Positions 22,107 through 61,775 of a DNA stretch of 64,000 nt are shown piece by piece. Numbering within the stretch: position 1 is the stretch's first letter; every line of letters begins with the position of its first letter. The position numbers and the translations under genes are program-made. Location: IMG/VR virus record IMGVR_UViG_3300017971_007886, positions 1 to 64,000 of that record; one strand, written 5' to 3'. The DNA is from a virus. A model generated the notes under the pieces. That model was not told where the DNA came from. It searched no databases and saw only the letters and a list, made by a program, of their open reading frames with translations.

Positions 22107-22497
22107 GTACATCATCACGAAGACGTTTCGGTTCGACTCTGCGCATCAGTTGTTCAAGATGCCAGCGGACCATCCGTGTCACCAGCTCCACGGTCACACG
22201 TACACGGTGGATGTCACGTTGTCCTCGTTGGGTTTGGACGACCGGGACATGGTGCTCGATCTCAACGTGTTCAGGGAACTCAAGAGCGTTCTCGACCACG
22301 CAAACCTGAATGATGTGATCCCGTCCGAGTATGGACAGCCTACCTCCGAGGTCTTGTGCAAGTACATCTGGGACTGGATCGACCGTCAGATTTGGGAACG
22401 GCTAGGCCCCGAGGGTCGGAAGGAGGTAGCCATTGGCAGAGTCGGAGTCCAAGAGACTCCCAACAACCGTACCGAGCTGGTACTGGAGGTAGAATGA
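22093..22497 (+). CDS. queD: QueD, 6-carboxy-5,6,7,8-tetrahydropterin synthase
   Basis: 134 residues. The PTPS/QueD fold is shown by zinc ligands His18, His33 and His35 (LHGH), catalytic Cys29, the LDHANLND segment and a VQETPNN motif near the end. It turns dihydroneopterin triphosphate into CPH4, the second step from GTP to preQ0. It lies upstream of queE and folE in the same run of genes. Confidence 0.9.
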   Translation: MGNRRYIITKTFRFDSAHQLFKMPADHPCHQLHGHTYTVDVTLSSLGLDDRDMVLDLNVFRELKSVLDHANLNDVIPSEYGQPTSEVLCKYIWDWIDRQIWERLGPEGRKEVAIGRVGVQETPNNRTELVLEVE

Positions 22498-23656: not shown

Positions 23657-24258
23657 CGGTACCGAAACAGATTCAGTCGGCAGTGAAGTCACTGTTGAAC
23701 TGGTGTGGCACCTACCAAGCAGAGGAGCAATACTTCCAAGACCTGGATCTGGAGGAAACTCCTGCGAGAATGGCCCGGATGTGGAAGCACGAATTGTTGT
23801 CGTCCTACAGGCCGGGAGCGTTTGAGGAGCTGGTAGATCGATTCACCACGTTCGAGTTGAAGGAGCTGGCCCCGAGGGAGATGATCGTTCAGGGTGACAT
23901 CCAGTTCTACTCGCAGTGTTGTCACCACATGGTCCCGTTCTTTGGGAGTGTCGCTGTTGGGTACATTCCAAAGGACAAGATCGTCGGTCTGTCGAAGATC
24001 GCACGAGTGGTTGACCACTTTGCGAAGCAACTACAACTCCAAGAGAGATTGACATCCCAGGTAGCGGACTTTCTCATGGAGCATCTGACACCAGCGGGGG
24101 TGATCGTGGTTGTGAAGGCCGAGCACCTTTGTATGACCATGCGTGGGGTACAGAAGCCCGGTACCATCACAGTTACTTCGGCATTGAGAGGGAACACCGT
24201 TGACAACCCCACCGTTCAACAGGAGTTCTACCGGCTCATTGGCATGGTACACTCCTAG
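23557..24258 (+). CDS. folE: FolE, GTP cyclohydrolase I
   Basis: 233 residues from the ATG at 23557. Zinc ligands C121 and H124 (QCCHHMVPF) and C192 (EHLCMTMRG) match GTP cyclohydrolase I. It makes dihydroneopterin triphosphate from GTP, the first step to preQ0. The first 30 residues are polar and not conserved-looking. It is the last gene before a new promoter. Confidence 0.9.
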   Translation: MGTKRDEPSGIKVRLSDTREGDTADTRPGWRPVAVPKQIQSAVKSLLNWCGTYQAEEQYFQDLDLEETPARMARMWKHELLSSYRPGAFEELVDRFTTFELKELAPREMIVQGDIQFYSQCCHHMVPFFGSVAVGYIPKDKIVGLSKIARVVDHFAKQLQLQERLTSQVADFLMEHLTPAGVIVVVKAEHLCMTMRGVQKPGTITVTSALRGNTVDNPTVQQEFYRLIGMVHS

Positions 24259-43100: not shown

Positions 43101-43799
43101 ATGGCAACAGTCGCGTACAGCGGTGGGATCGACAGCACCGTCCTCATGTACGAGTTGGCCTCTCAAGGCCGCCTCAACCTGGCGGTACTCTGCAACTTCG
43201 GACAGCCATCGTTTGATCGACAGCTTCGTTGTGCGGAGTATCAGATCGCCAAACTCGAAGAGCATGGCGTGGATGTCCACTTCCGGGTGGTGGAGTTCAA
43301 GACGCCCGAGGAGTTCCAGGTCAAGGAGGCTTCTCCGTTCTTCTCGATGCGGCCTCTGAACCCACTGGCCAAGGCACCAAAGAAAATGAAGGACGCCATC
43401 GCGTATCGACTCGATAACTTCGCCATCACCCCAGGACGGAACGCTTTCATGGTCTTGATGGTTGGGATGGTCGCGGCGGCCTTGGAGACGAACCCGGCAG
43501 TGGTCACGGCGTACCAGTACGAACAGGACATCTGGGATACGCAGGACACCATCTCAGGGGACGAGTCGCCCTCGTTCTGGTTGAAGATGGGCATGGTTTT
43601 GGAGACGGCCTTCGAGGTACCTGTGGCGCTTGAGAACCCGTTCTTGGATCGTCATTGGGACAAGGAGCGCATCATCCGTGAGGGTATCGAGTACGGAATC
43701 GACTTCGCACACACGATGTCCTGCGAATTTGAGGAGCCCTGCGGCGAGTGCGCCCAGTGCCAACTGGTCAAGAAGACGGTTGCCAAAACCAGGGGCTAG
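43101..43799 (+). CDS. Divergent QueC-like ATP-PPi enzyme
   Basis: 232 residues. The PP-loop SGGIDS (7-12), PGRN near residue 113 and a C-terminal zinc site (C...CGECAQC) place it in the QueC family. It lacks the GDC-x-PPF segment found in the QueC at 46393. A changed substrate is therefore likely: perhaps it modifies preQ0 or the DNA base rather than making preQ0. The YkgJ-like gene lies two bases upstream; a promoter sits inside its 3' end. Confidence 0.75.
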   Translation: MATVAYSGGIDSTVLMYELASQGRLNLAVLCNFGQPSFDRQLRCAEYQIAKLEEHGVDVHFRVVEFKTPEEFQVKEASPFFSMRPLNPLAKAPKKMKDAIAYRLDNFAITPGRNAFMVLMVGMVAAALETNPAVVTAYQYEQDIWDTQDTISGDESPSFWLKMGMVLETAFEVPVALENPFLDRHWDKERIIREGIEYGIDFAHTMSCEFEEPCGECAQCQLVKKTVAKTRG

Positions 43800-44234: not shown

Positions 44235-45971
44235 ATGTTCAATGACCAAGTTGCTGCCCAAGATACCCAACCCGAGTTACTGAGAACCTGCCCCCTCACA
44301 GACAAAGAGCTGATCGACAAGGTTCTGATCTTCGTCGAGGAGTTCACGCGACCAAAGCGCGTCGGTAAGGCAGACCTCTACACCTACCAGAAGGTGTTCG
44401 CCCGCCGCATCATCGAATCGGTGGTACTGGCCGAAGGCGACACCATCACTGCTCTCTTCTCTCGACAGGCCGGAAAGACTCAGACCGTTGCCGACGTTGC
44501 GGTCTCGCTTTGCGTCATCCTCCCTGTCTTGGCCCGAGAGTTCCCCGACGACACCCGGCTCAAGTCGTTCTCTGCCGGGTTCTGGGTCGGTATCTTCGCA
44601 CCAGTCATGGACCAGGCAGGTATCTCGTTCAGTCGCATGAGAGCCCTGGCCTCCTCACCAGAGGGTGAGGCTGTGTTCCGTGACCCAGAGATCAACATCG
44701 AGTTGACCACTGACCGTGGCGATGAGCTTGGGTGGAGTACCGGTAGCGTGGTGCGATCCAAGTCTGCGAGCCCTGACACACAGATCGAGGGCAAGACCTA
44801 CCACCTCATCCTCTGCGACGAGGCCCAGAAGCTCCTTCGGTCCAAGGTCGAAAAAGAGATCATGCCGATGTTGGCCGCGACCGCAGGTACGATGGTCAAG
44901 ATCGGTACTGCCTGGGAGAGTCGCGGCGGCTTCCATACAGACATCCAGTACAACGTTCAAGCGTACAGCGACGGTGGCAGACGGAACCATTTCGAGTTCG
45001 ACTACAAGATGGTGCTCGCGGAGAAGCGGGCGGCCTACGACCGGGATGGTAACCCGTTCCACCTGAACTACGAGAAGTACATCGAGAAGCAGATCAAGCG
45101 ACTCGGCGGCACTGAGAATGAAGAGTTCAAGATGAACTTCATGCTCAAGTGGTTGGAGAGTCGTATCATCGCCATCAAGGCATCGACCCTCATGGCCGGT
45201 CGAGAGAAGCGCCACATTGGCGAGCTGCCCATGCCGAGGAATGGTCATGTCCTGGTTGCGGGGCTCGACGTTGCGAAGTCGAACGACAGTACCGTCCTTA
45301 CGCTCACCGACATAGACTTGGACAATCCCATCGTGGACATCTCCAAATACGGCACACCTCACGACAAGATCGGTACCATCCAGGGAGAGAGCGAGCAGAA
45401 CTACTTCTACATGAAGCGAGTGGTCGCGTGGTTGGAGTTGCAAGGGACGTTCGAGGGTGACACTGGCCAGTACCAACGTGTGCTCGACTTCCTGATGAGG
45501 TTCCCTCCTTTGTCCATGTTCCTTTGCGACGCGACTGGCATGGGCGATCCCGTGTACGAGCGGTTCACGGTGTTGCTACCTGACATCGACGTTCAGCCGT
45601 TCAAGTACAGCGCCCCCTCGAAGTCCGACCTCTACAAATACTACCTGCAAGAGTGGTCCTCTCGTCGGTTCAAGTATCCTGCCGATGCCGCTGCTCAAGA
45701 AACGCCTGAGTTCCAGAAGTTCGAGACACAGCATTTGGACCTAGACAAAATCTCCTCTGGCAACTACATCTCGTGCGTAGCCCCCGAAGATGAGCATGAC
45801 GACTACCCGGACTCGGCGGCCCTGGCGTGTTGGGCCGAGAAGATTCTCAAGAAAGACGCTATGCCATTTATCGAAGTGAGTGGTGTACCTGATGGTGGAG
45901 CGCGTGATAGGAGTCAGCAATCCTCCGGTTATAGTAACCGGCAGATGCGGTACATGAGAGGACGAAGATGA
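44235..45971 (+). CDS. terL: Terminase large subunit
   Basis: 578 residues. ATPase Walker A SRQAGKT (76-82) and Walker B LILCDEAQ (D195, E196), coupling motif GTAWE, and a nuclease domain with AGLDVAKSND (D345), CDATGMGD and DDYPDSAALACW. It packages the genome into proheads. No small terminase was recognised nearby, which is unusual. ATGA overlap with the next gene. Confidence 0.95.
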   Translation: MFNDQVAAQDTQPELLRTCPLTDKELIDKVLIFVEEFTRPKRVGKADLYTYQKVFARRIIESVVLAEGDTITALFSRQAGKTQTVADVAVSLCVILPVLAREFPDDTRLKSFSAGFWVGIFAPVMDQAGISFSRMRALASSPEGEAVFRDPEINIELTTDRGDELGWSTGSVVRSKSASPDTQIEGKTYHLILCDEAQKLLRSKVEKEIMPMLAATAGTMVKIGTAWESRGGFHTDIQYNVQAYSDGGRRNHFEFDYKMVLAEKRAAYDRDGNPFHLNYEKYIEKQIKRLGGTENEEFKMNFMLKWLESRIIAIKASTLMAGREKRHIGELPMPRNGHVLVAGLDVAKSNDSTVLTLTDIDLDNPIVDISKYGTPHDKIGTIQGESEQNYFYMKRVVAWLELQGTFEGDTGQYQRVLDFLMRFPPLSMFLCDATGMGDPVYERFTVLLPDIDVQPFKYSAPSKSDLYKYYLQEWSSRRFKYPADAAAQETPEFQKFETQHLDLDKISSGNYISCVAPEDEHDDYPDSAALACWAEKILKKDAMPFIEVSGVPDGGARDRSQQSSGYSNRQMRYMRGRR

Positions 45972-46396
45972 AGCCAGCAGACGTATTGAACCTACTCCCC
46001 AGGTACCTGGTTCGAGCGGCCCGCATCAACAACATCATCCCGTCTGATCGCCCCAAGCAGTACAACGAGACAGCCCAATACGAGCACATCACTCGGAACA
46101 TTTACGTTGTACCCAACCTTCCGGCAGAGGTCATGCGCCGGTCGATGATTCACGAGATCGCCCACGCCCTTGACGACAACTTCGGTGTCGGGCACTACTT
46201 TGGAGAATCACCAGCCTGGGCAGAGTTGTCGAGGCGAATGTATGGCGACGTGTCTGTGGTCGAAACCTTCGCTGAGAACATGGCGACCCACTTGTTGGAC
46301 CCCACGTTCTCTCGCATGGTGAATCCATCCGTTGCCAAGTTCATGGATGAAGCGTTGACCTATTTGCAGATCATGTTCAAAGGAAAGACCCAATGA
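45968..46396 (+). CDS. Zinc metallopeptidase-like protein
   Basis: 142 residues with HEIAH (62-66), the HExxH zinc motif, in a helix followed by ALDDNFG. The fold may be minigluzincin/SprT-like. It could be a virion or maturation protease, but no substrate is evident. It overlaps both terL and queC by four bases. Confidence 0.65.
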   Translation: MKPADVLNLLPRYLVRAARINNIIPSDRPKQYNETAQYEHITRNIYVVPNLPAEVMRRSMIHEIAHALDDNFGVGHYFGESPAWAELSRRMYGDVSVVETFAENMATHLLDPTFSRMVNPSVAKFMDEALTYLQIMFKGKTQ

Positions 46397-47061
46397 CCAA
46401 AGAAGAGAGCAAGTTGGTATTCTGTTCGTGTAGTGGTGGCCTCGATTCGAGCGTGATGGTCCAAAAGCTCGAAAATGAAGGGTACTACCCGATCCCCATC
46501 TTCATCGACTACGGCCAGAAGACGGCAATCGTCGAGTTCGACCGCCTTCGCCAGGTGTGGCCGAAGTGCAAACTCATTCGATTCGACCTCATGGGTGGCA
46601 TCCGGTGTTGGGCCACCAATCCGGGGGACCAGTTCATCCCCACCCCGAAGCGTGAACGCGATTTGATGTTCATCCCTGGCAGGAACATCTTCTTCCTGAC
46701 GAGGCTGGCCGTCGAGGCGTACTACTTCCACGCCCATTACCTCGCACTCGGGAACAACACCGATGACCTCACATGCGGAGACTGCAAGCCTCCGTTCTTG
46801 GAGTCGATGGCCAAGTCCCTCACTCTCGGCATGTCCACCCGTGATGCGGGCGAGTACGAGTACGAGATCCTTCAACCCTTTGGTGACATGAGCAAAGCCG
46901 ACATCGTTCGGTACGGCCATGACCACGGGGTAGCCATCGAGAAAACATGGAGTTGTTACGATTTCCAAGAGAAGCATTGTGGGGTATGCTGGAACTGTGT
47001 GGAAAGGAAGCACGCCTTTGAGAAGGCGGGCGTTGAAGACAAGACAGGCTACATAGAGTAG
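46393..47061 (+). CDS. queC: QueC, preQ0 synthase
   Basis: 222 residues. The PP-loop is SGGLDSS (14-20), with FIPGRNIFFL, ALGNNTDD and CGDCKPPFLESM in the QueC order, and a C-terminal zinc site (SC...CGVCWNC). It converts CDG to preQ0, completing the pathway begun by folE, queD and queE 22 kb upstream. It is the more typical of the two QueC paralogues. Confidence 0.85.
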   Translation: MTKEESKLVFCSCSGGLDSSVMVQKLENEGYYPIPIFIDYGQKTAIVEFDRLRQVWPKCKLIRFDLMGGIRCWATNPGDQFIPTPKRERDLMFIPGRNIFFLTRLAVEAYYFHAHYLALGNNTDDLTCGDCKPPFLESMAKSLTLGMSTRDAGEYEYEILQPFGDMSKADIVRYGHDHGVAIEKTWSCYDFQEKHCGVCWNCVERKHAFEKAGVEDKTGYIE

Positions 47062-48033: not shown

Positions 48034-48333
48034 ATGGCATGGGCACCAGGCGGTTCCATCCCCTCGGGAGCGCGGGGCGGATTCAGAACCACAGTCAAGA
48101 CGATCAGCACCATGATCGACAGAGGCCGGAAGCGGATCTCTGCGAGCATGGAAGCCCTCAACATGGGGAAGGCGTCGGCGTGTACCACTCGGATCACGCC
48201 TGCCGAGAAGGATGCACCACCCGCGTTGCCGGGTAGTGGCGAGTACCAACCTCAACAGATGCAGACCCTACCGGGTACTGACATCAGGAACTTCGACCGC
48301 AGTTCTCGTGCGAAGACTGGAAAGGTGGGATGA
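48034..48333 (+). CDS. Hypothetical small protein
   Basis: 99 residues. Gly/Ser-rich start, a helix (VKTISTMIDRGRKRISASME) and a polar tail. No family. Confidence 0.6.
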   Translation: MAWAPGGSIPSGARGGFRTTVKTISTMIDRGRKRISASMEALNMGKASACTTRITPAEKDAPPALPGSGEYQPQQMQTLPGTDIRNFDRSSRAKTGKVG

Positions 48334-48334
48334 T

Positions 48335-48553
48335 ATGGCCATCTCAAATGACCAGCTCGACAACTGGTTCACGTACCACAAGCCAGGCCCAGGCGACGAA
48401 GCGAAGTACGAAACGATGCGGGCAGCGGGACGTGCCCTCGCCCAGGCCATCGTGGACAACACGCCTGAGTCAGCCGATCAAACCGCAGCCGTCCGAAAAG
48501 TGAGGGAAGCGGTGATGACCGCGAACTCAGCTCTGGCGTGTAGCGGGAGGTAG
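48335..48553 (+). CDS. Acb2/Tad1 hairpin-like small protein (candidate anti-CBASS/anti-Thoeris)
   Basis: 72 residues. FTYHKPGPGDEAKYETMR followed by AAGRALAQAIVDNTPESADQ and REAVMTANSALA fits the small helical-hairpin family named after Acb2 and Tad1, phage proteins that trap cyclic-nucleotide alarm signals. Many family members are untested, so the function here is a prediction. It lies in the head gene region, not in a defence-counter-defence cluster. Confidence 0.65.
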   Translation: MAISNDQLDNWFTYHKPGPGDEAKYETMRAAGRALAQAIVDNTPESADQTAAVRKVREAVMTANSALACSGR

Positions 48554-48555
48554 CC

Positions 48556-48858
48556 ATGTCGATCCAATCGGAGGTGGCAGACTTCGCCACTGGAAAGACG
48601 GACTCTTACCACTTCAATGCAGTGGCGGATTACGTTCGTCTCACGATCCCAGACGCGGAGGACAAGGACATCCGAAGTGCGTGCATCGTGGAACTCAGAC
48701 CTCTGGGGAATGATTGGTTCTGTACCGGCAAGCAGTTGCCGTCACCGACCCTTTACCAGATGAAGTCGGCAATGGGAGACTTCATCGACGACCCCAGCGA
48801 GGCAAACGAGGCGGCCCTTGTTGCCTTGATTGCCCAATACCAAACGGAGAACCCGTAG
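48556..48858 (+). CDS. Hypothetical small protein
   Basis: 100 residues, two bases after the Acb2-like gene. Mixed alpha/beta (VADYVRLTIPDAEDKDIRSA). No family. Its stop overlaps the next GTG. Confidence 0.65.
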   Translation: MSIQSEVADFATGKTDSYHFNAVADYVRLTIPDAEDKDIRSACIVELRPLGNDWFCTGKQLPSPTLYQMKSAMGDFIDDPSEANEAALVALIAQYQTENP

Positions 48859-49647: not shown

Positions 49648-51750
49648 ATGGCAATGACGTTCTTCGCGGACTCCTCCGGTGCGACAGGAGGAGCAGTACC
49701 CTTTCAGAGGGTGATCGACCCCTCGAAGTTGGGGATGTACCTCAACCTTGAGCAGGCCGAACTCCTTCGACTCCAGAGATACCGTCAACACTGGCGGTTC
49801 TACTACAACAAGCACTGGGACTTCGCCCGCGAGGACGGTGACCCGCTCGTCACGTTCAACTACTTCAAGAAGATCATCGACAAAGGTGCTGCTTTCCTCA
49901 TCTCGCGAGGGTTCAACATCAAGGTACCGGAGCCCTTAGCCGGGTACACGGCACCTTTCCTTCGCGAGGTGTGGAAGAAGAACAACGGTGGCAGGTTCAT
50001 TTGGGACATGGCCCTCATGGGCGGTGTCACAGGTGATTGCTTCATCTTGGTCACGTACCAACAGCCCACACCGTTGGAGAAGCGCATCTTCCCGTTCGCC
50101 CAAGGTAGGATCGTTCTGAACCTACTCGGTAGCGAACAGGTCTTCCCCGACTTCAACCCGCTCAACAAAGAAGAGATGCGGTCGGTGCGGATTGAGACTC
50201 TGTACTATGACGCACGAGCGGTGTCCGAGGTCGGGAAAGAGGACCGCAGTTCCGAAGGCCGCCAGTTGAACATTCGGCGGTACACCCAGATCATCACACC
50301 GACCACCATCACCGAGCACCTTCAAGGTGAGGAGCCTCGGATTCGTGAGAACGTGCTGGGTGAGATTCCTCTCGTCCACATCAAGAACCTTCCGGCACCC
50401 AACGAGCCCTACGGTCTCCCCGATTGTCTCGAAGTGATTGACGTACAGCGAGAGCTGAACGAGAAGGCGACCGACGTGTCCGACGTTGTGAACTACAACG
50501 CGGCTCCCATCACCGTCATCACAGGTGCCAAGGCCAAACAGCTCGAACGTGGTCCTCGACAGATTTGGTCGGGCCTTCCCGAGCGTGCGAGCGTGTTCAA
50601 CCTCAAGCTGGAGGGAGACCTCGGAGCGGCCAAAGAGTACATCGACATGGTGAAGGAAGTGATGCTGGAGTTGTCGGACACTCCCGAGGGTTCGCTTGGG
50701 AAGATGATGCCGATCTCCAACACAGCCGGTGTAGCCCTTCACATGCAGTTCGGTCCTCTCATGGAGAAGACCATCAAGAAGCGGGCACAGTACCAGCCCG
50801 GTCTTGAGAGGGTGAACTACTTCATCCTTCGCATCGGCCACGTACTCGGTATGATCGATCTCCCGTTCGACATCGACAAGCTGACAGGCGGGAAGATCGC
50901 CTTGGTGAAGACCAAGGATGGGGAAGCGTCATTGCCTCGTGCATACCAGATGAACCCAGCCAACTTCGACTTCCTGGCCCCGATGGACATGCGGCTCAAG
51001 TTCCTTCGCGAGTACAGCTTCGGGAAGGAGATTCGAGAGGAGCCGTATTGGAAGATCGTGGCCGAGCATCGCGGCGTGTCCAGGTCGTTCTGGGATGTCG
51101 AGCCCGAGTCCACGATTGAGAAGAAGGCAGAGAAGAAGCGGTCGGAAGAGAACGCCCAGGCAGCCGAGAACAACAAGGCCGTCGCCCCATCCAAGGAGGG
51201 GGTCAAGCCCGGAGTCGCCAAGCAGCTCCCCAAAGAGGTGGAGCCTGGAAAGATTCCGACCTCTCAGATCGACATTCCGCCCGAGCCAGAACGTGCTACC
51301 ATTGTAGTGCGGAAGTACGATTCCAAGACAGGGCACCTTGTTGACGAGGAGGAAGTGACGAGAGACCTGGTTCCATGCAGTACGTCACTCGAACGAGTGG
51401 AGTACCTGAATCCATACGACAGCGAGATCGCCTTCAATGATCCGCTGCCGAAGGATGTCCACCTCCAAGCCCAACTCTACAAGCAGTACAAAGAGATGGG
51501 GATCGTATCGAAGCAGTGGATTCAAGAACACATCCCAGAGATTGCCCCCTACATTGCCGAGATCGAGAAGCAACTCGAACGGGAAGCCTCGATCAGTCCT
51601 GCCCCAGACATCGCCAGCCCTGCGGAGACCGAGTTGCAGGGTGACGAGGACGCCCGTGGTGCGAAGGCAGCAAGCCACCCGCCCTCTGGGAAAGAGACCC
51701 AAGGGGACATGGGCATGAAAGAGCGCGGGTTGAACACCGGGCGTTCATAG
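49648..51750 (+). CDS. Portal protein
   Basis: 700 residues. The N-terminal stretch (LRLQRYRQHWRFYYNKHWDF, then VTFNYFKKIIDKGAAFLISR) is typical of phage portals, as are the later beta-rich wing and a long helical crown (DTPEGSLGKMMP, then HMQFGPLMEKTIKKRAQYQP). The last 200 residues are a charged linker and helices. Forms the dodecameric DNA entry ring with the terminase. The position before scaffold and capsid genes fits. Confidence 0.85.
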   Translation: MAMTFFADSSGATGGAVPFQRVIDPSKLGMYLNLEQAELLRLQRYRQHWRFYYNKHWDFAREDGDPLVTFNYFKKIIDKGAAFLISRGFNIKVPEPLAGYTAPFLREVWKKNNGGRFIWDMALMGGVTGDCFILVTYQQPTPLEKRIFPFAQGRIVLNLLGSEQVFPDFNPLNKEEMRSVRIETLYYDARAVSEVGKEDRSSEGRQLNIRRYTQIITPTTITEHLQGEEPRIRENVLGEIPLVHIKNLPAPNEPYGLPDCLEVIDVQRELNEKATDVSDVVNYNAAPITVITGAKAKQLERGPRQIWSGLPERASVFNLKLEGDLGAAKEYIDMVKEVMLELSDTPEGSLGKMMPISNTAGVALHMQFGPLMEKTIKKRAQYQPGLERVNYFILRIGHVLGMIDLPFDIDKLTGGKIALVKTKDGEASLPRAYQMNPANFDFLAPMDMRLKFLREYSFGKEIREEPYWKIVAEHRGVSRSFWDVEPESTIEKKAEKKRSEENAQAAENNKAVAPSKEGVKPGVAKQLPKEVEPGKIPTSQIDIPPEPERATIVVRKYDSKTGHLVDEEEVTRDLVPCSTSLERVEYLNPYDSEIAFNDPLPKDVHLQAQLYKQYKEMGIVSKQWIQEHIPEIAPYIAEIEKQLEREASISPAPDIASPAETELQGDEDARGAKAASHPPSGKETQGDMGMKERGLNTGRS

Positions 51751-54406: not shown

Positions 54407-55387
54407 ATGCCATCAGTTCTCAACACAGCCGTACAGTCGGGTGCGGGCTTCAATCAGATCGTCCAAGCGACGCGGGACGTGTTCTCAGCGGAAATCTGGT
54501 TCGCAGCTCTCCCCATCCTGAAGTTCGACCAATTCTCCACCAAGAAGACCGAGCTGGGTGTCCAACCTGGTCGAGTCATCCAACTGCCCCGCTATGGAAA
54601 CATCAAGCGTGGTGGTCGGTTGACCGAAGGAAAGCGCCTGGAGACTCGCGGCATGTCCATGAGCCTTCAGTCGATCTCCGTGGCCGAGGAAGGCAACGCC
54701 ATCGGTTTCTCGGAGTTCTTGCTCCAGACCTCGTTCTACGATCAGATGAGCGCCGCGTCGCTCCTCCTAGGTCGTGACATGGCCCTGGTTCTGGACTCCG
54801 AGCTTCGTGACACGGTGAAACTCGGTACCAACGTGGTGTACGGTGGTGGGCAGACCGCCCGTGCCAACGTCACCTCTGCGGACGTGTTTGACACCCGCGC
54901 CATCAAGGATGCAGTCGAGGTACTGGAAACCAACAACGCTCCCAAGTGGGCGGGCGACCACTACATCTGCTTCATCCACCCCCATCAGGCCCGTGGTCTG
55001 CGTGACGACAATGACTGGATCAACGCCAGTCTGTATGCCGGTGCCACGCAAATCTACACTGGTGAGATCGGGCGGTACGAGGACGTTCGTTTCGTCAGCA
55101 CCACCGTCATGCCGAATGGTGCGAACAGCGCCATCGACCCCGAGACCGGGGACTACGTGGACGTTGGCTATGACGCCAACCTCGACGGAGCCGGTTCGGG
55201 CGGCATCGACATCTACCAAGCCGTGTTCTTCGGTGAGTATGCGTTCGGTCATGCGACCGCGCTGCCCGTCGAGTTGCGCGACAATGGCGTCGAGGACTAC
55301 GGACGTGAGCACGGTCTCGCGTGGTACTCCATCTGGGGCCAGTCGGTGCTGGAGAACTCGAACATCGTGGTGGCCGAGACTGCGTAA
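54407..55387 (+). CDS. Major capsid protein, N4-gp56-like
   Basis: 326 residues behind a very strong AGGAGGAATTTG site. The pattern (AEIWFAALPILKFDQF, RVIQLPRYGNIKRGGRLTEG, SISVAEEGNAIGFSEF, YICFIHPHQARGLR and EYAFGHATALPVEL) matches the N4-gp56 branch of HK97-fold capsid proteins. Forms the head shell. Confidence 0.9.
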   Translation: MPSVLNTAVQSGAGFNQIVQATRDVFSAEIWFAALPILKFDQFSTKKTELGVQPGRVIQLPRYGNIKRGGRLTEGKRLETRGMSMSLQSISVAEEGNAIGFSEFLLQTSFYDQMSAASLLLGRDMALVLDSELRDTVKLGTNVVYGGGQTARANVTSADVFDTRAIKDAVEVLETNNAPKWAGDHYICFIHPHQARGLRDDNDWINASLYAGATQIYTGEIGRYEDVRFVSTTVMPNGANSAIDPETGDYVDVGYDANLDGAGSGGIDIYQAVFFGEYAFGHATALPVELRDNGVEDYGREHGLAWYSIWGQSVLENSNIVVAETA

Positions 55388-59402: not shown

Positions 59403-61775
59403 ATGCCAGAGTTCCTAAGCCCATCCATTCAGGTCGTCGAAGTACGGCAAGGGGTAACGGACGTTCAAGGTGTCTCTACGAGCACTGGCGGGTTTGAGGG
59501 GAAAGCCGAGAAAGGCCCCATCAACACCGCAACCCTTGTCACTTCAATCACTCAATTCCAAGAGGTGTTCGGTGGACCCCTCGCGGACTCGTACCTGTTC
59601 GAGCAGGTCGATGCGTTCTTCAAGAACGGTGGTTCACGTTGCTGGATCACTCGCGTTGCCCACTACACGGACATCACCAACGTCAGTACCCTCACGGCGG
59701 TCGCAGCGTCCAAGACCATCCAGAGTGCTGCCGGTGGAGCCACTGCGGGTGCCCACACGGGTACCGTCATGGCACCGTTCAACCTGGAACCAGGGGACAC
59801 CCTGACGGTTGACGTTGACGGAGGTGGGGCGGCGGCTGCCACTTTCGATGCGACTGCGGCTACCAAGGCCGGTTCGGGCGCGACCTATGCGGCCCTGACT
59901 GGCAAGACCCTCGTTGTTCAGATCGATGATGACGGTGACGACCAGACCATCACGTTCACTGGATCAGCGACCGATGCTGCTACCACTGCCGCCGAGATCA
60001 ATGACCAACTGCGAAAAGGCAAGGCCGAGGTCAACGGAGGTGAGATCGATCTCGTCTCCGACAAACGAGGTACTGGCTCGAAGGTGGACATCAAGAGCGG
60101 TACCGGTCTCGTGGAGATCGGACATACCGTGGGTGCCGCTGCTGGTACCGGCGACGTTGCCGACATCGACGCAGTGACCCACGCCGAGGCGAAGGCGGTC
60201 ATCGAGGGAGACATCCCTGGCTTGACCTATACTCCCGCCTCTGGTGCCGGGTACGCTACTCTCACCTCGGACACCACGGGGGCCAGTTCGTCCATCCAAG
60301 TATCTGCCGGGGCAGGACAGACCGCGTTCGGGTTCGATACCAGTCTTCACTCTGGTAGTGATACTGCATCACCAACGGACACGATCACTGTCACAGCGTC
60401 GAGCGAAGGGGCTTGGGGTAACAACGTCAAGTTCACCATCGTTCGAGACGATACCACGGTGACTTCATTGGCGACCTCGTTGGCTGCCGGGGCGGCCACG
60501 TCATGCCAGGTCAAGTCTGCCAACCAGTTCCGAGTGGGTGACTGGCTACAGATTGCCGATGGTACCAATGAGATCCGGGTGAAGGTCACGAACATCAATG
60601 GCAGTGAAGTTCAGTTCGCGTCCACTACGGTACCTGCGGGAGGTATCTCGGCAGGTACTTCGTATGTGATCCGTGAGCGGTTCTCGATTGCCGTCATTGA
60701 GAATGGCACCATCACCGCCTCGTTCTCGTACTTGGCGATCAGTTCGGATCAGAAGCGGGACTACTTCGTGTCTCGCATCAACAACACCGAGAACACCCCC
60801 ATCTTCGTGACGGACCTCGCGGCGGTAGTCCCCGATCCAAGACCGGCAGCCCAGGAGAACACACTGTTGTCTGGTGGTTCTGAGGGCGATGCCATCGCGG
60901 ACACCGACTATGTTGGTAGTGGGGCTTCCAAGACGGGCCTCTATGCGTTCGATCCCATCGACGCAGTGAACCTGGTCTCGATTCCGGGCGTCACCTCGGT
61001 CGCAGTTCAGAAGGCGATTCTGGACTACACGACCAACAGGATGGACTGCTTCGGTATCCTCACCCTGCCAGCCGGTCTGTCTCCCTCTCAGGCCCACACC
61101 TACGTCACCTCGACGGCGAACCTTGCTTCGTCGTATGCGGCGGCGTACTACCCGTGGGTCAAGCTGCTCAGTACCATCACTGGTACCGATGAGCTGACGC
61201 CTGTGGACGGGTTCGCCCAAGGTGCCTACGCTCGTACCGACCGAGTTCGGAACGTGGCCAAGGCCCCTGCGGGTATCGTCGATGGTCGGCTCAACGGTGT
61301 CACGGGTGTCGAGCGAGAGGTCGCAGAGGGCGAGTACGACATCCTGTACCCGGCCAACATCAACTGCGTCCTCAACATCCCTGGCAGTGGTATCTGCCTC
61401 TTCGGGTCGCGTACCTTGGAGACGGGCGAGTTCCGTCAAATCCCAGTACGTCGCTTGTTCATGTTCATCGAAGAGAGTTTGGCCGAGGCCAGCCGCTTCG
61501 TGTTGTTCGAGAACAACGACCCCGAGACTCGCGCAGCGGTTACCCGACTCTACAAAGGGTTCCTTCGTAACCTCCGGTTGTCGAAGATGCTCTACGGGAA
61601 GTCGGATGCCGAGGCGTTCTTTGTCATCTGCGACGAGCGCAACAACACCCAGACCGTCATCAACTCCGGGTTGATGAAGGCCCGCGTTGGTGTAGCCGTC
61701 AAGAAACCGACCGAGTTCTTGCTCATCGAGGTGATGCAGGATACCCGTGCCCTAGACGCTGAGTTGTCGGCCTAA
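59403..61775 (+). CDS. Tail sheath protein
   Basis: 790 residues behind AAGGAGG. The N-terminal PSIQVVEVRQGVTDVQGVST and the GGSRCWITRV segment, plus the C-terminal domain (RRLFMFIEESLAEASRFVLF, FLRNLRLSKMLYGKSDAEAF), are typical of contractile sheaths. Many sheaths are 400-500 residues; here ~300 residues of Thr/Ala/Gly-rich repeats are inserted after residue 90, probably surface domains. Establishes a myovirus-type tail. Confidence 0.9.
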   Translation: MPEFLSPSIQVVEVRQGVTDVQGVSTSTGGFEGKAEKGPINTATLVTSITQFQEVFGGPLADSYLFEQVDAFFKNGGSRCWITRVAHYTDITNVSTLTAVAASKTIQSAAGGATAGAHTGTVMAPFNLEPGDTLTVDVDGGGAAAATFDATAATKAGSGATYAALTGKTLVVQIDDDGDDQTITFTGSATDAATTAAEINDQLRKGKAEVNGGEIDLVSDKRGTGSKVDIKSGTGLVEIGHTVGAAAGTGDVADIDAVTHAEAKAVIEGDIPGLTYTPASGAGYATLTSDTTGASSSIQVSAGAGQTAFGFDTSLHSGSDTASPTDTITVTASSEGAWGNNVKFTIVRDDTTVTSLATSLAAGAATSCQVKSANQFRVGDWLQIADGTNEIRVKVTNINGSEVQFASTTVPAGGISAGTSYVIRERFSIAVIENGTITASFSYLAISSDQKRDYFVSRINNTENTPIFVTDLAAVVPDPRPAAQENTLLSGGSEGDAIADTDYVGSGASKTGLYAFDPIDAVNLVSIPGVTSVAVQKAILDYTTNRMDCFGILTLPAGLSPSQAHTYVTSTANLASSYAAAYYPWVKLLSTITGTDELTPVDGFAQGAYARTDRVRNVAKAPAGIVDGRLNGVTGVEREVAEGEYDILYPANINCVLNIPGSGICLFGSRTLETGEFRQIPVRRLFMFIEESLAEASRFVLFENNDPETRAAVTRLYKGFLRNLRLSKMLYGKSDAEAFFVICDERNNTQTVINSGLMKARVGVAVKKPTEFLLIEVMQDTRALDAELSA

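Follow-up and report, generated by a model that had tools for sequence, protein, structure and literature searches.

The window analyzed in the present study comprises the first 64,000 nucleotides of a 92,966-bp uncultured viral record, in which nearly all genes were called on the + strand throughout. One of these genes, located between the terminase and portal genes (Table 1), has an uninterrupted frame from ATG to TAG and is translated as MAISNDQLDNWFTYHKPGPGDEAKYETMRAAGRALAQAIVDNTPESADQTAAVRKVREAVMTANSALACSGR. An earlier note on this DNA had read 72 residues from position 48335, assigned them to the Acb2/Tad1 hairpin family and placed the gene among head genes; the translation, an HMM search and the positions of the terminase, portal, major head protein, and tail sheath genes agree with this description.

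Table 1. Genes surrounding the hairpin gene (positions within the window)
Feature	Position	Strand	Remarks
Terminase large subunit	44235..45971	+	PHROG 2, E 1.9e-16; upstream, same gene run
142-aa ORF, possible metalloprotease-like HEIAH motif	45968..46396	+	weak PHROG matches only
QueC-like protein	46393..47061	+	PF06508, E 2.2e-32; PHROG 1550
99-aa ORFan directly upstream	48034..48333	+	no Pfam match over the cut-off, no PHROG match
Acb2/Tad1-hairpin protein, putative nucleotide-signal sponge	48335..48553	+	72 aa
100-aa ORFan directly downstream	48556..48858	+	Pfam and PHROG searched; starts two bases past the sponge stop
Portal protein (SPP1 Gp6-like)	49648..51750	+	PF05133, E 1.9e-21; PHROG 64
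Major head protein	54407..55387	+	PHROG 1357, E 2e-55
Tail sheath	59403..61775		followed by tail tube

The 72-aa protein matched Pfam PF24729 (Acb2_Tad1_hairpin) at 34.1 bits (E 3.1e-8), above the curated cut-off of 27 bits, and residues 13–69 aligned with the complete profile (1–58 of 58), which places the protein in this domain family. The best phage family was PHROG 1454 (function unknown; E 8e-15). No other gene in the 92,966-bp record matched PF24729, and no match was obtained in 14 control genomes. Searches of PADLOC and NCBIfam with the protein did not return a match. Median dN/dS among the hairpin homologues was 0.11, with a maximum of 0.29 (50 unsaturated pairs). Since these values are low, a chance ORF is excluded, and 48335–48553 is a genuine gene under purifying selection. 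A start at 48212, giving a longer ORF of 113 aa, was rejected: that ORF runs into the upstream gene, and M1 of the 72-aa form is where the family begins.

The upstream gene ends with TGA (48331–48333), one base short of the sponge ATG. Since the gaps to the two neighbors are one and two bases and a promoter scan gave no site for the sponge gene over shuffled expectation, the sponge and packaging genes most likely share one transcript. The QueC-like gene is a further non-structural gene within the terminase-portal interval. The ORF with the HEIAH motif adjoins the 3' end of the terminase gene and possibly encodes a small metalloprotease. Because tail sheath and tail tube genes are present, the phage is, as judged from its gene content, contractile-tailed.

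The record also carries 7-deazaguanine (preQ0) genes, encoding QueD/PTPS (22114–22476), GTP cyclohydrolase I (23770–24258), and two QueC-like proteins (43101–43799 and 46393–47061). A canonical TGT (PF01702) was not found in the viral record. The preQ0 genes without TGT may indicate guanine-modified DNA produced with an unrecognized transferase. The second QueC-like gene is 1.3 kb from the hairpin gene, and QueC lies 0.5–1.5 kb from the hairpin gene in two of the three relatives' records that carry it (G036, G027; L015, L064), too few records for a judgment.

Predicted fold and ligand-site residues

A single-chain AlphaFold2 prediction with 74 sequences in the alignment gave a model with a pLDDT of 92.3 and a pTM of 0.79. 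The predicted helices span residues 5–11, 22–42, and 47–68, namely, a short N-terminal helix and two long antiparallel helices, the same arrangement as in the published Acb2 protomer (PMC10419184). Among the predicted viral structures of BFVD, the best matches were mainly proteins named Acb2/Tad1 hairpin. Foldseek against the PDB and VIA-align returned chance helical bundles only, with solved Acb2/Tad1 chains absent, and were uninformative for this hairpin. A profile search of the PDB ranked Acb2 homolog 43 (9ptq; E 0.46) and T4 Vs.4 (7uq2; E 0.66) as the top two, both non-significant.

Two ligand-site residues are retained. In HMMER and hhalign alignments, R29 falls on K23 of T4 Acb2 and on K26 of Pseudomonas phage Acb2, and a basic residue is thus kept at this position; K26 of the PaMx33-type Acb2 is presumably a position with a role in Acb2. 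Both programs also placed Y14 on Y8 of T4 Acb2 (the Y8/Y11 tyrosine), and the Y8A change in T4 Acb2 abolishes dinucleotide binding (PMC12657218). R29 is present in 74 of 74 relatives and Y14 in 69. Two other residues are changed: R54 occupies the column of T4 T68, at which T68M weakens ligand binding (PMC12657230), and A68 replaces T4 F82, which stacks on the ligand (PMC12657218). Since the T68 column holds R54, the specificity of the tested members is not transferable, the ligand preference of the 72-aa protein may differ from theirs, and we assign the protein to the hairpin family as Acb2-like rather than as an ortholog of Acb2.

Distribution and gene neighborhoods of the relatives

The first search of IMG/VR identified 16 loci with 48–68% identity to the 72-aa protein, and a profile search identified at least 181 related stretches. 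The first 16 loci had essentially no other gene in common with the record when compared with all its called genes. Such occurrence in phages without other common genes is typical of accessory counter-defense genes, and a spread across otherwise unrelated phages is what a mobile accessory gene would show. A search of IMG/VR for portal relatives, with which hairpin gain or loss in close kin might be traced, found none. Twelve relatives were located on contigs of bacterial genomes. Most of these were metagenome bins named Planctomycetota, Acidobacteria, Pyrinomonadaceae, and Geobacteraceae; one of the 12 was from an isolate, Acidicapsa dinghuensis. These contigs give a hint of the range of hosts of the subfamily without identifying the host of this phage.

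The hairpin gene was within 5 kb of the terminase or portal in 12 of the 27 relatives in which either gene could be placed, whereas random placement would give 5.4 (p about 0.0025, treating the records as unrelated). It is directly 3' of the portal gene in Gordonia phage Chidiebere (gp24), upstream of both terminase genes in mycobacteriophage Nergal (gp2), and near a connector of PHROG 332 in L003. Carriage among head genes was previously considered unusual; this view is contradicted by the unrelated phages in which relatives repeatedly lie beside a terminase, portal, or tail gene. Many relatives are 7–28 kb from the terminase and others are in replication modules, which fits a mobile accessory gene.

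Two annotation matters were noted among the relatives. Cyanophage S-2L has an unannotated 71-aa Acb2/Tad1-hairpin ORF among its tail genes (L018 8001–8213; MW334946.1 35199–35411), which overlaps the start of a tail assembly gene. The hairpin proteins of Paenibacillus/Brevibacillus phages (L094 4998–5213; L096 4989–5195) are labeled "putative phosphomannomutase", evidently a propagated misannotation.

Proposed function and comparison with known systems

The Pfam match, predicted fold, retained Y14 and R29, and mobile-gene distribution support the putative sponge identity proposed in the earlier note. We consider the 72-aa protein to be a compact Acb2-type sponge that would be encoded on the same mRNA as packaging proteins, with a probability of approximately two-thirds. 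Its targets are most likely CBASS-like, possibly Thoeris, signals. Acb2 is a homohexamer that binds three dinucleotides and two trinucleotides and sequesters CBASS signals to the benefit of the phage. By analogy with Acb2, the helical-hairpin protomer would assemble into a hexamer, and this putative hexamer would bind a cyclic-nucleotide-type immune signal. Y14 would stack on the base, and R29 together with R54 and R57 of the subfamily would contact the phosphates. The signal would be soaked up, leaving the host effector inactive. The late expression suggested earlier is plausible from the operon anatomy, and the promoter scan added nothing above chance; a sponge encoded between the terminase and portal is probably on the same mRNA, and its level may rise as late triggers appear. 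A late sponge would be sensible because documented alarms arise at the packaging stage: staphylococcal CBASS is activated by terminase-gene RNA (PMC10686824), and Thoeris senses capsids (PMC12578639).

A sponge with a main target other than a CBASS dinucleotide is possible, but we hold this reading only tentatively. The R54/R57/T62 pocket may have been retuned, for example, to a cyclic trinucleotide or a TIR-derived ADP-ribose species. In nearly all members of the subfamily of the 72-aa protein, positions 54, 57, and 62 are R/R/T, whereas the Scottie-type set has T/E/W; position 54 is that of T4 T68, whose change weakens binding. A tree recovered this split without error (support 0.69); however, each set had been retrieved with a peptide motif of its own, and the split is therefore exaggerated, partly built in, and a lead rather than a result. 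Furthermore, intermediates exist (Jenst, REW; Lactococcus 1706, TRF; L017, RRW), both sets retain Y14 and R29, and the protein does not have the Tad1 beta-domain that helps to build the gcADPR pocket. A broader proposal, which we regard as improbable, treats the RRT hairpins, a subfamily with at least 181 loci in IMG/VR, as an uncharacterized sponge class with its own ligand, located in packaging operons and rising with terminase RNA or capsid triggers. If correct, it would represent counter-defense timed to the alarm.

The operon position near the portal and the excess of relatives near the terminase or portal would also suit a small late structural, assembly, or regulatory protein in which the helical hairpin is no more than a reused fold. 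We consider such a role unlikely because many relatives are distant from the terminase or in replication modules. Moreover, a search of 35 hairpin-carrying records gave no SPP1-type portal, yet the hairpin is 48–68% identical across them, which is unexpected for a partner-specific assembly factor. A sponge packed in the virion and entering the cell together with the DNA is very improbable: its sole point is the position among head genes, whereas the protein is small, soluble-looking, and without a structural-domain fusion, and relatives occur in replication modules. The virion link raised in the earlier note is thus unsupported.

The compact Acb2-type sponge remains our preferred reading. The sponge family and its position among packaging genes are already known; only the variation at the ligand site merits a test. 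Should the R54/R57/T62 variant bind another signal, an immune messenger not yet described would be indicated, and if co-expression with packaging genes matters, the timing of counter-defense would be tied to known CBASS and Thoeris triggers. The present results add to the sponge family a type of sequence that is common among uncultured viruses and has relatives on contigs binned to Planctomycetota, Acidobacteriota, and further phyla that have received little study.

Among known systems, Acb2 (T4 Vs.4; p26 of Pseudomonas phage PaMx33/PaP2) has the same Pfam hairpin and three-helix layout, with Y14 and R29 as the equivalents of Y8/Y11 and K23/K26. However, Acb2 is longer (88–94 aa), T68 and F82 are R54 and A68 here, and sequence similarity to solved chains is non-significant. 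The T4 gene is in the tk-vs-denV region, in contrast to the terminase-portal interval here. Tad1 (Thoeris anti-defense 1) likewise has, at its C-terminus, the helical hairpin by which PF24729 is defined, whereas the all-helical 72-aa model has no counterpart of the N-terminal antiparallel beta-sheet domain of Tad1, a domain that forms part of its gcADPR pocket (PMC12043709). The subfamily profile aligns over the whole hairpin with the 76-aa chain of Acb2 homolog 43, a match that is non-significant alone (E 0.46); like the present protein, this chain carries F12 and H15 and is basic at position 29, but it has Thr at the position of Y14. The FTYHxP-type small hairpins are Paenibacillus Scottie gp55, Gordonia Chidiebere gp24, Mycobacterium Xandras gp101, and the unannotated S-2L ORF. 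Family proteins of mycobacteriophages and microbacteriophages, including the homologous Xandras gp101 (PMC11953737), have already been published as putative CBASS antagonists (PMC11953737; PMC13348362). F12, Y14, H15, P17, R29, A63, and N64 are common to most FTYHxP-type proteins, and those of Scottie, Chidiebere, and S-2L are similar in length to the 72-aa protein. They mostly have T54/E57/W62/R69, whereas the present protein has R54/R57/T62/C69.
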